Source: Tubulanus polymorphus
Taxonomy: Eukaryota; Nemertea; Palaeonemertea; Tubulaniformes; Tubulanidae
Assembly (NCBI RefSeq): GCF_964204645.1
Contig: NC_134027.1
Span: 9,722,485 to 9,786,484, forward strand
Direction of reading: 5' to 3'
DNA length: 64,000 bases
Every line of letters starts with the position of its first letter. The first letter of the stretch is position 1. Below, one piece after another: positions 23,082 through 53,142 of the stretch. The notes beneath the pieces were generated by a model. That model had not been told where the DNA came from and made no database searches. It saw only the letters and a list, made by a program, of their open reading frames with translations. The position numbers and the translations under genes were made by a program.

Positions 23082-23206
23082 CCAGGGGCCAAGTTGGTAA
23101 GAAGATACCCGGCGGATGAATAAGATAGTAACGATGAACTTTTAATAGTCACTATGTCATCTATCCGCTGGTTAACTCTAACCAACTTTTGGGTAACTGC
23201 CCCCTG
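23082..23206. mobile_element. Short inverted-repeat MITE, CCAGGGGCC family
   Basis: About 125 bp. The left end is CCAGGGGCCAAGTTGGTAAG; the reverse complement of the right end contains GGGGGCAGTTACCCAAAAG followed by TTGGTTAGAGTTAACCAGC. The same motifs recur at 53792-53926 in a CHCHD4 intron. No coding capacity. Confidence 0.6.
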
Positions 23207-23267
23207 TCCTGTTCATTAGCATATACATGTGTACCCCCTGTCCTGTTCATTAGCATATACATGTGTA
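23200..23267. repeat. Perfect 34-bp tandem duplication
   Basis: Two identical 34-bp units (23200-23233 and 23234-23267), each starting CCCCCTGTCCTGTTCATTAG. The lack of divergence suggests a recent duplication at the edge of the adjacent MITE. Confidence 0.9.
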
Positions 23268-25746
23268 CAAAACGATATGTAGATCACGTCAGAAAGTACT
23301 TTCATTCGTTTGTGTAATAACGGTCGGTTTATCGCGTTAAGGTCATTTGTTTGGTCATCTTTGCGCAAGTATCGGAAGTAGATGGACAAATCTTCGTCTA
23401 AGGGGAAATGTTATCGCAGTCGATGAAAGCATATGCCAGCAGATCATAACGCGCGAATAGCGCACGTCCCACGATTTCTAATCGCAAAATCTTAACTAGA
23501 TACATCACTTATCTTTCGTTGATCGTTTCGAATTCAACAATATGCACATGGCGCGGTTTATCTGATTTCGATATAGATTTCGACAAACTTTCGCCCGCCC
23601 ATTAGCACTTTCGTCTGCGATAATATCGAACAATGGAGGGGCTTCCTTCACGCCACAACTAGGAAGCCTACGGCACTCGGAGTGGATCGTGTTAGAAAAG
23701 GGCAAGTTTTAACGTTGTTCCCCTACGGCAAGGCACGACCCCGTGCTATGTTTGGTTGTGGACAATTACATGGTGTATTAGCTATTGACTGCCATTAGGC
23801 GGCGGAAGGAACATGGAAACATCAGTGCGCCGGGCGGTGGAACCCTCGCGTATCCTCTTAGGACTGATGTAAGAGTGCCGCGAGATAGCGTTTAATGATG
23901 TGAAACTTCACAACGCCTCGCCTACCAAATTCGTAGGCATTCCTTTAAAAATACTATGATGAATTTCAAAGCAACGAATTCATCAAGAAGCAGTTGATTG
24001 TCAAATCGTAAAAAAGCTCTTTCGTTAATCTTATGCGGTTTTCGTTTAATTGCTCTGGTTAAAACAATCTATCGCAAGGCGCACTCATAAGTATATATGT
24101 ACCTACTAGTGCCATCTATCCATACGGTTTACGGGCATAAGTTCAAAAAATATTAATCGTTTAATTTACCTATAAACCTATACATTGGATTGCCTTTATA
24201 CATAAGGTATAACATGAATTTTTACACAATAACGAGCGTTCTAGTTTCCTTGATCAAATTCGTGAAACATTTCAAGAGGTCTTGTGCATTGTAATGCAGC
24301 TCATTGCTGGCGCCAATGAAGCCACTCGAAGTCCGAGTCTTCACTCGCTGAGTTCTCGCAATCGTCTGCCCGCTTTGTACCACCTGCTCTTAAACCTCTC
24401 CACAAGGCGAAGAATCGTTACAAAAACCACATTCTCTATGGCCCAAATTGTTCATTTCCAACTTTTCTCATTTCAAGTATGTGTATGTTTTGATTGTCTA
24501 ACGTGGAAATGCTAGCACTGTTTACGACGCTCCATTGACTCGATAAAGCCCGCTATCTGTCTATTCCTAAGCGCCACGTAGACAACGCTTTCGTAAATAT
24601 TTAATTCGAGTTAGGCGAGCAATAGCTGCGTCTGATTTTTCATAACGGAAGAATTGTTTTCGGTTCGACGTCTGAAATTGAACCAGGTATTGCATTAAAC
24701 ATTGGCATTAAACAATCGAAACCGCAAATATCCATCAAGTTTCCTGATTCTATTTTTACAAATGAGCTACTAGGAGCTATTCCCCATATCGTGTGTCTTA
24801 CATAAGCCATCAGAAATCATTTGTTTGCTCCAATATCACTTGAGTTCCTTGAATAGCTAAATGAACAACGCTCTTATCCTGGGGGCACAATTTACTTTTA
24901 TAAATTATACTGATTTTAACATAATTTGGAAGTCCTCGAAACTGTTCGCTGAAAACCCCACGAAGACGGCGATCGGCTTCTCGCTAAGCCGTCCCAATAT
25001 CCAATTATCGACCTCCAGCCGAGATGTCCATTCCCGTACACACTTTTACAATGAAGGCTTGAGAACTTCGGGGGTCTCGTACAATGCCAAATGACGTCCG
25101 TGGTGCAAAAACTTTCTTCTTGCTCAATTGCACCATTTCATTACGCATAAGTGGGGGTCTTCGTTGTTTGACACTTTCTAACAATAAAGTAGCGAAAATC
25201 CTTATTCAAACTGTGAATAATTACACTTCATATTCGCGGTGCGGCGGGCATGTCATAATTTCGAACGATGTCATTTAAATTTGTCGCCGAACGAGTCTTG
25301 ATAATTTGGAAAAGAACTGAATGACCCGTTTTAACGTTCAGATTTAGGTTGGCTGTTAAATTCCAACGCGTGCGTCAAAATGGTAGAAATAACCAATTTG
25401 TTTGTCACGTTGAATAATTCATAGACTGGCAAGAAACCCGTGGAAACCATGGGTGTTTTCTTTCTTAACTTTTCGATTCATTGCACGTAAAATTAAGTAG
25501 GAGCATTCTATAACGTATGAATATCATGCGGCATTTTATCTCGTGTCCGTAGAGACCTAGCGGAATATCAGAAGAGAAATCCACGATATCGATTAAATTG
25601 TTTTTTACATTCAATTTTCATTTCAAACAGAAAAACTAAAATTTTCACAAAAATTGCACGCGCCTTACATTCATCATGCAGACATTATAGCCGGACGGGA
25701 TAAATCGATTCAAGCTGTAGTACTTTATTACTGAATTTTCGGGCAT

Positions 25747-49244: not shown

Positions 49245-49289
49245 TAGACTGGTTGCCTGATCTACATATACAGTGTGGCAACCAGTCTA
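49245..49289. repeat. 13-bp hairpin sharing a motif with the dispersed family
   Basis: TAGACTGGTTGCC and GGCAACCAGTCTA enclose 19 nt. The same string occurs in the dispersed family copies (near 7275, and reverse-complemented near 18442), hinting at a fragment of that family or a shared terminal motif. Confidence 0.5.
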
Positions 49290-49305
49290 CAAACCTGGAT
49301 TGACG

Positions 49306-52300
49306 CATATGTCATTCTGCAGATTTTCCAGAACCTGCCCTGAGAGGCCACATGGCTTCTCAGGGCAGGAACCTGCCCTGAGAGGCCAGTCGTTTGAATC
49401 AATAGAAAATGAAAACCCATTCAACAGAGTGAGCTGAAATGGTGGCAAGGTGATCGGGATATTCAGATTCAAACTAAAGTTTTCGATCATACAATAGAAG
49501 ACTACGCTGTATTCTATAGAAATAAATTGAGAAATACAAATGCTTTTAATCATATTAAGCTAAAACAGTTAAATAGTCAAGACGTAAGGGAAAAAAAAGT
49601 TACCTAAAATCAAAATATGAATTTTTGTTGAAATATAGAAAATAGAAATAGAATTAAAATTGGTATTTTTCAGAAACAAATTAAAAAATACTAATATTTT
49701 TCATAGAAATAAAGAAATGAAAAAAACTTTTCTCTGTGGGAACATTTCTTATCAAAACATCATAAAAAATTTCATCTATAACTTAATGAAGAAGAAAAAT
49801 CACAATTATTCTCAGGAATAGAATTTTGCTGCTATGTAAGGTAATTAATGATAACGATGATACAAGTTTTTGTAAAAATTAAATTATATGATTCCAAGCG
49901 GCGCTGTTTTTATTTGTAATCTATAATTTACGATTAACGTGCTATATGTTTCTTCTAATTTCTTTGCACTTCACTTTCTTGTGTTACATTTGCATACGTA
50001 TTTCTATATATGCATTGTTTGCATCAATAAATATGAATGCACTTGTGTTAAATAACAAAGTCCTTATCGCATCGTAATTAAACTGGCTATCGGCTTGCTC
50101 ACACATTAATGGAAGGTGACGAAGAGATGAGGAGAGCACGCCGCAATTGCTCATTACGTCAATATAAAACATTCGACACATTTTCTAAACTCATTTTGGT
50201 AACATGCGTGAGGCCTAGCCTAGATTGCAAATGTAGGAAAAATCTGTATTATCGAAACGAAACTGGCCTCTCAGGGCAGGTTGATATTGGAAGTCAAACT
50301 TCAGCAGCTCTCGGGGCAGGTTGATTTGTGCAGAATGAAACTGGCCTCTCAGGGCAGGTTGATTTCTGCAGAATGAAAGTGGCCTCTCAGGGCAGGTTGA
50401 TATCAGATGTCAAACTGCAGCAGTTGAACTGGCCTCTCAGGTGATATCTGCAGAATGAAACTGGCCTCTCAGGGCAGGTGATCTGCAGAACTCAAACTGC
50501 AGCAGTTAAACTGGCCTCTCAGGGCAGGTTGATTTCTGCAGAATGAAAGTGGCCTCTCAGGGCAGGTTGATATCGGAAGTCAATCTGCAGCAGTTGAACT
50601 GGCCTCTCAGGGCAGGTGATCTGCAGAACTCAAACTGCAGCAGTTAAACTGGCCTCTCAGGGCAGGTGATATCTGCAGAATGAAACTGGCCTCTCAGGGC
50701 AGGTGATCTGCAGAACTCAAACTGCAGCAGTTAAAAAGGCCTCTCAGGGCAGGTGATATCTGCAGAATGAAACTGGCCTTTCAGGGCAGGTTGATTTCTG
50801 CAGAATGAAAGTGGCCTCTCAGGGCAGGTTGATATCGGAAGTCAAACTGAACTGGCCTCTCAGGGCAGGTGATCTGCAGAACTCAAACTGCAGCAGTTAA
50901 ACTGGCCTCTCAGGGCAGGTTGATTTCTGCAGAATGAAACTGGCCTCTCAGGGCAGGTTGATATCTGCAGAATGAAACTGGCCTCTCAGGGCAGGTGATA
51001 TCAGAACTCAAACAGCAGCAGTTAAACTGGCCTCTCAGGGCAGGTTGATTTCTGCAGAATGAAACTGGCCTCTCAGGGCAGGTTGATATCTGCAAAATGA
51101 AAGTGGCCTCTCAGGGCAGGTTGATATCGGAAGTCAAACTGCAGCAGTTAAACTAGACTCTCAGGGCAGGTGATATCTGCAGAATGAAACTGGCCTCTCA
51201 GGGCAGGTTGATATCAGATGTCAAACTGCAGCAGCGGAACTGGCCTCTCAGGGCAGGTGATATCTGCAGAATGAAACTGGCCTCTCAGGGCAGGTTGATA
51301 TCAGATGTCAATCTGCAGCAGTTGAACTGGCCTCTCAGGGCAGGTTGATATCTGCAGAATGAAAGTGGCCTCTCAGGGCAGGTTGATATCGGAAGTCAAA
51401 CTGCAGCAGTTGAACTGGCCTCTCAGGGCAGGTTGATATCTGCAGAATGAAAGTGGCCTCTCAGGGCAGGTTGATATCGGAAGTCAAACTGCAGCAGTTG
51501 AACTGGCCTCTCAGGGCAGGTTGATATCAGAAGTCAAACTGCAGCAGTTGAACAGGCCTCCCAGGGCAGGTGATATCAGAAGTCAAACTGCAGCAGTTGA
51601 ACTGGCCTCACCGGGCAGGTTGATTTCTGCAGAATGAAAGTGGCCTCTCAGGGCAGGTTGATATCTGCAGAATGAAAGTGGCCTCTCAGGGCAGGTTGAT
51701 ATCGGAAGTCAAACTGCAGCAGTTGAACAGGTCTCTCAGGGCAGGTGATATCAGATGTCAAACTGCAGCAGTTGAACTGGCCTCTCCGGGCAGGTTGATT
51801 TCTGCAGAATGAAAGTGGCCTCTCAGGGCAGGTGATATCAGAACTCAAACAGCAGCAGTTGAACTGGCCTCTCAGGGCAGGTTGATATCAGAAGTTAAAC
51901 TGCAGCAGTTGAACAGGCCTCTCAGGGCAGGTGATATCAGAAGTCAAACTGCAGCAGTTGAACTGGCCTCTCAGGGCAGGTTGATTTTTGCAGAATGAAA
52001 GTGGCCTCTCAGGGCAGGTTGACATCGGAAGTCAATCTACAGCAGTTGAACTGGCCTCTCAGGGCAGGTTGATATCAGAAGTCAAACTGCAGCAGTTGAA
52101 CTGGCCTCTCAGGGCAGGTGATCTGCAGAACTCAAACTGCAGCAGTTAAACTGGCCTCTCAGGGCAGGTTGATTTCTGCAGAATGAAACTGGCCTCTCAG
52201 GGCAGGTTGACGACAGTAGACTACGTATATAATTGCACCCGCAGGGCTGATCAGATTAGATTCAATTGCGTATGCCTTATTGCATGTGGCAACTATAATT

Positions 52301-52939
52301 ATGCCATTGTCATTAGATAAAGTATGAAACTGATTAAAGTTGGCCTGCGCTCAGGTAATTAACCTAAAGAAAAATAATATGACATGTGATCAACCAACCC
52401 TTACCCCGGAGAAGAAAAAAATAGGATCAGCAGAATTACAATAGAGTTTCTGCGAAAACAGTAGAAACCCCCGAAAAATTCACTGTTGAATTAGAATATA
52501 CAGCATATTGAAACGCACTGATATCAGTGGACGACACAAATTGTTTATGTAGGCCTATAGGATATTTGAATAATTAAATTAATGCTTTGAAATTTATATA
52601 ATCACCATAACTTTTCGTCGTCGGTTAACTACATGACTTTTTAAAAATACATTTCTTATTAGGAATGAATTTTCATTGAAATATTACTTTCGTTTTATTT
52701 GTTAAGTGTCGATATATCAATACGTTTAATATATTTCATTTTAATCCATTTAATTTCATGACTCGACAATGTGCATGTCAAACATCGGCGAGATAGTTCG
52801 CCGTTTCATCAGAATTATAGCCGAGTTTTCCATTTATACTGCTTAATTGCGCCAATGGCCTCTCAGGGCAGGTTCCTGCCCTGAGAAGCCATATGGCCTC
52901 TCAGAGCAGGTCTGCGGATTCTTAAGAATGACCCTTCTC
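49306..52939. mobile_element. ~3.6-kb segment with inverted ends and internal minisatellite
   Basis: The left border (about 49307-49388) carries three 16-bp cores in the order inverted, direct, inverted: CCTGCCCTGAGAGGCC, ACAT, GGCTTCTCAGGGCAGG, AA, CCTGCCCTGAGAGGCC. The right border (about 52857-52935) is its reverse complement with two substitutions: GGCCTCTCAGGGCAGG, TT, CCTGCCCTGAGAAGCC, ATAT, GGCCTCTCAGAGCAGG. Beyond the cores the match continues weakly (TGTCATTCT left; AGAATGACC right). The same 8 bp, GATTGACG, stands outside both ends (49298-49305 and 52940-52947), a possible target duplication. Between lie two AT-rich flanks and the 50263-52210 array. I see no transposase. Whether it is one mobile unit is inference. 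Confidence 0.55.
50263..52210. repeat. Minisatellite, ~45 cores with two alternating spacer types
   Basis: The core GGCCTCTCAGGGCAGG recurs about 45 times, mostly perfect. Short spacers (TTGATTTCTGCAGAATGAAA, period about 37-40 bp) mix with long spacers (TTGATATCGGAAGTCAAACT then GCAGCAGTTGAA, period about 47-51 bp). A shortened long form reads TGATCTGCAGAACTCAAACT. Short and long units alternate irregularly, with runs of two or three long units towards the right. Degenerate cores sit near the left edge and at 51541-51790. No long reading frame crosses it. Confidence 0.95.
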
Positions 52940-53142
52940 GATTGACGGAGGCATTCTCGCTTGCCAGGGCTCGATCGCCTCCAGCTGAAGCTCCTCAATG
53001 CTTGTTGGCGTGAAAATTCAGCGGGAGACGGCGAGACCCTGGCAATAGAGAATGGACTGGAGAATGAAAGCTTCAAAGCTCGGCCAAGTTTTTCAAATCA
53101 AATCCATACATAATCACAACACGACATTTAATGTGAAAAAAA

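Follow-up and report, generated by a model that had tools for sequence, protein, structure and literature searches.

The stretch of DNA analysed here, called the window, covers 64,000 nucleotides of the Tubulanus polymorphus genome (C3:9722485-9786484, in a genome of 267.8 Mb). It contains what is almost certainly a mobile DNA element of 3,634 bp, located at 49306-52939, with the exact 8-bp duplication GATTGACG on both sides. Within it lies a minisatellite, and on each side of the minisatellite there is a compact module of three cores.

The left target site duplication is at 49298-49305 and is identical to the right one at 52940-52947. The ends were set by comparing other copies. In the window, GATTGACG occurs on the plus strand at these two places alone, and on the minus strand at three other places. 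Next comes the left tip CATATGTCATTCTGCAGATTTTCCAGA (49306-49332), of which the outer part is unlike the other end, while the inner TCATTCT also occurs in the right tip. It is followed by the left three-core module (49333-49388), the left internal region (49389-50263) and the minisatellite (50264-52206). The latter has 44 cores if up to 3 mismatches are allowed, 35 of them exactly TGGCCTCTCAGGGCAGG, with spacers of mainly 22-24 or 34-35 nt. The right internal region (52207-52855), the right three-core module (52856-52911) and the right tip (52912-52939) complete the element. Everything from tip to tip is given on the plus strand.

Neither internal region has an open reading frame of at least 100 aa, and no stop-to-stop frame of at least that length overlaps the window copy. 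In other copies that match there, identity is 75-99% for the left region and 78-99% for the right.

The modules form two arms of 56 nt each, 96% complementary. Each arm consists of three cores on alternating strands, joined by a linker AA (left) or TT (right) and by a short second joint. On the left the cores are at about 49334-49350 (minus), 49353-49369 (plus) and 49372-49388 (minus); on the right they are at about 52856-52872 (plus), 52875-52891 (minus) and 52894-52910 (plus). The first two cores of the left module can form a hairpin (z about -4.6) whose 16-bp stem includes one G-T pair.

An initial annotation of the window had described inverted three-core modules, an array of some 45 copies and a possible 8-bp target duplication, and all three hold up. 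It had also placed the modules about 650 bp to the right and about 950 bp to the left of the array. The first distance is indeed 649 bp; the second has to be corrected to 875 bp. The position of the duplication was right, but the modules themselves are not the ends of the element, since the true tips lie outside them.

The left tip has the form CATATG(AG)TCATTCTGCAGA, where the AG is absent from the window copy, leaving its tip 2 bp short of the commonest form. Read inward, the right tip is GAGAAGGGTCATTCTTAAGAATCC. The commonest left tip CATATGAGTCATTCTGCAGA and the inward reading of the right tip GAGAAGGGTCATTCTTAAGA both have GTCATTCT at an equal distance from the end, on the right directly after GAGAAGG. 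The outermost 7 bp of the two ends (CATATGA and GAGAAGG) are equal at 3 of 7 positions.

The genes in the window are of animal type, with immunoglobulin I-set domains and a nucleotide-sugar transporter. At 23200-23268 a 34-bp unit is present as a perfect direct duplication. Directly left of the element, at 49246-49288, there is a stem-loop AGACTGGTTGCC...GGCAACCAGTCT. The similar sequence ACTGGTTGCC stands near other ends (at the loci numbered L007, L045 and L048, and at a long copy on C8), and is perhaps another short repeat. A 45-bp part of the right internal region (52426-52470) has 27 more matches outside the element family, some of them adjacent.

Copies, duplications and empty sites

Searching the genome with the left module had been suggested from the start, with the expectation of other paired inverted modules, variable arrays and 8-bp duplications. 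These were found. The left-module query gave 82 matches and a right-end query 67, in both cases with several matches per copy; 40 candidates were scored per query. Many left-end matches start exactly after the position of GATTGACG, so the left boundary is fixed by other copies.

Pattern searches with the tips yielded 24 right ends (up to 3 mismatches) and 32 left ends (up to 2), and reversed control patterns yielded 0. A left end lies at most 12 kb from 15 of the 24 right ends, where the window's own left end was added by hand in the pairing. Adding L013 and L046 brings the number of both-ended copies to 17, ranging in length from 89 bp to 10.5 kb. The left tip starts with CATATGA in 12 of the 17, and the right tip with GAGAAGG in 14.

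Around these 17 copies, the flanking 8-mers are identical in 10 cases, agree at 7/8 positions in 5, and do not match in 2. This count leaves out L032 and L054, which share their flanks and represent one insertion, as well as every one-ended copy. In a control with mismatched flanks, 0 of 272 pairs reach 7/8. Counting against mobility, L006 is without a duplication (4/8) and L027 has an eroded end. No clear consensus was seen in the letters of the target site duplications. Runs resembling (TTGAA/TTCAA)n are found within 150 bp of 6 of the 17 insertions (L007, L008, L010, L014, L027, L028); in the background, (TTGAA)n-like runs occur in 6 of 637 windows from the 64-kb stretch and in 5 of 535 from other loci.

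Paralogous empty sites exist for three copies (L008, L011 and L012). They come from a comparison of 19 joined flanks with other loci, and of six joined flanks with the genome. L012 sits in a host repeat, of which the paralogue L067 aligns at 86% right across the junction. It has one ATTTATTA there, as against two copies of ATTTGTTA in L012. In L029, a further paralogue of this site, six additional bases stand beside the junction. The L011 junction is spanned by 27 among the 40 matches listed of 121 candidates (from the six joined flanks). Its paralogue L031 has three additional bases at the junction, which makes this case less clean. For L008 the junction is spanned by one match, C4:4811894-4812006, at 80% with gaps and about 21 bp shorter.

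Of the empty sites called for by the initial annotation, which had related haplotypes in mind, paralogous ones are there for three copies. The window copy yielded none: of the 40 matches listed of 121 candidates, just its own two flanks matched its part of the query well and no match spanned its junction, which does not show that such a site is absent.

It could be that nothing here is mobile, and that segmental duplication or gene conversion dispersed a minisatellite with inverted outliers. L032 and L054 are a case in point, as a related element's single insertion was copied there along with a host repeat, with flanks that are only CGCGYGAG-like. For the family this is highly improbable. The flanking 8-mers of one locus match each other, those of separate loci are different, empty sites exist, and there are independent, precise insertions with target duplications. 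Since further loci have the same ends, modules and flanking duplications, the pairing of the modules is not a matter of chance either.

What defines a class II transposon with terminal inverted repeats (TIRs) is present: a duplication of fixed length at independent loci, empty sites and inverted repeats. Helitrons leave no target site duplication, and the 8-bp duplications here do not fit them. With defined ends, 8-bp duplications, dispersed copies, three paralogous empty sites and a window copy that lacks coding capacity, the earlier idea of a non-autonomous DNA element or foldback element is supported.

The ends vary in their number of cores. All 17 both-ended copies have a three-core right module, except L046 and the 10.5-kb copy on C8 (C8:513711-524182, L033/L034); in L023 the first core is incomplete. 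One-ended copies differ, with a similar module in L041 and one core in L035 and L039. Left ends have three cores or one, the latter in L020, the first copy of L021, L023, L026, L027, L028, L029 and L031. The window copy has three left cores and L027 one, while their internal regions are 98.8-99.4% identical, so that in at least one case the change is recent. Cores 1 and 3 of the left module form a direct repeat at a spacing of 38 bp, and slippage with loss of 38 bp would turn three cores into one.

The shortest copy, L046 (C8:10193644-10193732), measures 89 bp and holds little beyond the two ends. Its flanks CCAACTTC and TCAACTTC form a 7/8 duplication. Some 45 bp per end may therefore be enough for movement, unless the rest was deleted after insertion.

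The central array and its link to the ends

An array is present in 14 of the 17 both-ended copies, with about 6 to 53 cores. The window copy has 44; the others are L026 (52), L007 and L009 (30 each), L028 (25), L014 (23), L008 and L011 (21 each), L006 and L012 (20 each), L010 (16), L005 (15) and L027 (11). L023 has 8 if one or more cores of the right module are included, and about 5-6 in the other count; the two counts per array differ by at most 2.

Array length varies even among close copies. The window copy, L007 and L027 have 44, 30 and 11 cores, and the internal flanks of L007 and L027 are 98.8-99.4% identical to those of the window copy. The maps of spacer variants also differ among close copies.

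Wherever a both-ended copy has an array (14 of 14), the cores in it are oriented like the outermost right core. The short spacer (for example TTGATATCTGCAGAATGAAAG) has 12-13 consecutive nt in common with the left tip, going outward from the core, and its motif TCTGCAGAATGA is the left tip in outward reading. For spacer types A, N and B, the score against the left tip was reached by 0 of 2000 mononucleotide shuffles. The window array contains 20 words of the GCARAATGAAA type.

Because the short spacer repeats the tip sequence, a short-spacer unit consists of core plus tip and resembles an end of the element. Judging by sequence, they appear to be copies of an end of the element itself. This agrees with the initial annotation, which had the ends seeding the minisatellite. 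The array would have originated by tandem duplication of an end, and its length would then change by slippage or unequal exchange.

Several observations weigh against such a tight link. The long spacer type D has 10 nt in common with the tip, and 17 of 2000 shuffles do as well; for type C the match is weaker, and 76 of 2000 shuffles are as good. Three both-ended copies (L013, L046 and the 10.5-kb C8 copy) have no array. In the sister family described next, the match between spacer and tip is weak, at 9 positions with one mismatch, and 209 of 2000 shuffles equal it.

This sister family is represented by L048 (C6:18640957). Its left tip is 95% identical over 38 bp to L042, L043, L047 and the C8 copy, and it aligns to the window copy at 74% over 150 columns. 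It has an array of its own, with 40-bp units and 15 cores, about 68% like the window array and similar to it in place and orientation. In L048 the core is preceded by TTCGA in the array and TTCGC at the terminus; in the window family this prefix is TGGC in both. Within 6 kb downstream, neither a right end (allowing 6 mismatches at most) nor an open reading frame of at least 100 aa was found.

From the sequences of these two families, array and ends appear to vary together, which may come about by homogenisation, by re-seeding or by a shared function. Each short-spacer unit is potentially an additional transposase-binding site, and might either aid transposition or be a passenger. It is rather unlikely that the array plays a part in transposition and is maintained by selection, as an internal enhancer or a platform on which transposase is loaded. 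The array is kept in 14 of the 17 both-ended copies, and the array of L048 has a similar place and orientation, with a core variant that tracks its own terminal core. On the other hand, the three array-less copies have exact or 7/8 duplications, although later loss of the array is possible. The same covariation would also result if the array were converted ectopically or seeded anew from the ends, and the comparison is limited to two families. Slightly more doubtful still is the fuller version, in which tandem end copies, each with core and tip motif, collect transposase as an enhancer at a distance and have long been kept. Recurrent homogenisation with the terminal cores would then make array and ends change in step from one sister family to the next.

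The family offers a multi-copy case in which a minisatellite can be linked to an end of its host transposon, and in which the chief difference between close copies is the length of the array. This is material for testing how minisatellites are born, and what surplus copies of an end do to transposition. The inverted modules and arrays may in addition be recombination sites.

The search for a transposase

The family is best classed as a non-autonomous foldback-type element, probably moved by the transposase of a Phantom-type Mutator-like element (MULE). It would be a non-autonomous DNA transposon that moves by cut and paste. A transposase supplied from elsewhere would bind the ends (core plus tip) and excise the element, and re-insertion at a staggered 8-bp cut would create the duplication. 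Taken separately, a MULE as the source of the transposase is reasonably likely. It is moderately likely that this transposase is of the Phantom type, with FLYWCH and MULE domains, and that the family is of the Mutator/Foldback type.

A MULE is the likeliest motor because the 8-bp duplication fits, the tips are unmatched as they are in the nematode element Tm1, and the genome has resident MULEs with tandem-repeat ends. Of the hallmarks of the Mutator/Foldback type, the 8-10-bp duplication is present (here 8 bp), as are the unmatched outer motifs of about 7 bp.

The resident MULEs are L074 (C5:10703400-10708900) and L075 (C7:13338900-13344400), 99.7% identical over 2,616 bp. Both have a 444-aa frame, and L075, the one scanned for domains, has FLYWCH and MULE domains in it (L075:1796-3127). 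Their tips GGGAGCGTACC and GGGGTCATCCC are unmatched over 11 bp. Inside the tips, tandem 16-bp ACTAGTCCGGGGGTTC-like units are found at both ends, in numbers that differ between the copies, and the duplications are 9 and 8 bp. The genome has a Phantom-type MULE whose end style is similar to that of the element family.

Transposase matches in the genome number 56 for MULE (PF10551), 2 for P (PF12017) and 20 for KDZ (PF18758). The initial annotation had hoped for a longer copy with a transposase, and none was found. The sole long both-ended copy, the 10.5-kb one on C8, has no recognisable transposase. Its six-frame reading has 28 open frames of at least 60 aa (the longest 191), none of them transposase-like by eye, and none of the listed PF10551, PF12017 and PF18758 matches is there.

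Two groups of loci were set aside as partners. L019 and L022 have open frames that by eye are gypsy- and copia-like, and that are probably nested insertions of retrotransposons. L035 and L039 run into frames resembling host genes, by eye ALG3-like and like a G-protein-coupled receptor.

There are several points against a MULE as the motor. Every copy examined is without a transposase, and no autonomous partner with both ends was found. In a comparison of the 56 PF10551 matches with the 56 ends listed at up to 3 (right) or 2 (left) mismatches, no FLYWCH-MULE transposase stood between the element's ends, and the match nearest to any end was 38 kb away. The repeats do not form TIRs, as the ends have one or three cores and the array is central. 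Membership of the Mutator/Foldback type falls short because no transposase was found between the ends and the array is not in a TIR. There is a likeness between GGGTCATCC of the resident MULE and GGGTCATTC of the right tip, but the two do not lie equally far from the end, and the likeness may be coincidental. Finally, a duplication of 8 bp is compatible with the P, hAT, KDZ and Merlin superfamilies too, and the genome has P and KDZ transposases.

The same kind of non-autonomous element could thus be moved by a P-superfamily (Galileo-like) or a KDZ/Zisupton transposase, which is improbable. The duplication sizes of these superfamilies fit. A P-type match lies in a 418-aa open frame at C7:12740405, and near-identical KDZ elements are present (L065-L070, at C8:2536500-2553500 and C6:11051330-11068330). 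These are over 13 kb long and 98.6-99.9% identical between the two loci, with tandem repeats of about 154 bp and about 189 bp toward one side. Against this, the P and KDZ stretches examined have no full-length match to the element's ends. GTCATTCT is absent from L067, L068 and L071, and the left boundary of one KDZ family is ATSCACCCGATACAC, unlike the element's ends. No P transposase was found between the element's ends, the two PF12017 matches being over 950 kb off or on a contig with no listed end. Likewise no KDZ transposase was found there: none of the 20 PF18758 matches is near a listed end, and all listed P and KDZ matches are over 950 kb from any.

hAT elements have 8-bp duplications and TIRs that begin with CAG or TAG. 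The commonest tips here, CATATGA and GAGAAGG, do not; hAT transposases were not searched for.

The literature also bears on the choice of motor. In Galileo, the TIRs contain tandem repeats with proposed secondary binding sites for the transposase (PMC3573991), which would suit a P-type motor. Unmatched tips, by contrast, are known from Mutator-like elements, Tm1 and others among them (PMC3169594).

Comparison with known systems

The TU elements of sea urchins are foldback elements with 8-bp duplications. The initial annotation knew of no described family with these ends. In so far as the 13-nt core has no match on either strand in the literature searched, this still stands, and a description elsewhere, for example in repeat databases, is possible. 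Elements of the same kind have been described however, namely Tetris, Tm1 and Galileo. As far as the searches reach, the element family looks new, and its kind is already known.

Nearest in overall character is Tetris, a foldback element of Drosophila virilis that is non-autonomous, has 8-10-bp duplications and was tentatively assigned to Mutator, and for which no autonomous partner was found (PMC4079207). Its internal tandem repeats, like those described here, are related to the terminal domain, with which they share a 37-bp stretch, and vary in copy number. Its authors suggest that the first repeat expansion may have increased transposition efficiency. The difference is in the dimensions and the place: the TIR-220 repeats of Tetris are about 220 bp and present in both long TIRs, whereas the units here are mostly 37-50 bp, in one central array.

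Tm1, from root-knot nematodes, has unmatched 7-bp outer motifs inside the duplication, a short repeat unit in variable number and mostly non-autonomous copies, all as seen here (PMC3169594). Duplications of 8-10 bp were found in 45 of 53 Tm1 elements. Unlike the present family, Tm1 has a known copy that bears a FLYWCH-MULE transposase, and its repeats of about 14 bp form a terminal TIR. The Tm1 motifs quoted in that source are dissimilar to those of the element.

Galileo, of the P superfamily, similarly has tandem repeats proposed to be secondary transposase-binding sites, but with 7-bp duplications, long TIRs and a P transposase (PMC3573991). BrickBuilt, a miniature inverted-repeat transposable element of Porphyromonas gingivalis, also has short inverted-repeat ends around a minisatellite (PMC4596501). 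It is bacterial, with 23-bp units without spacers, and the parts of its description drawn on here do not mention a link between array and ends. Further elements are known as sources of tandem repeats (reviewed in PMC9659126). What sets the element family apart is that its short units form a single array, which is central and does not adjoin the ends.

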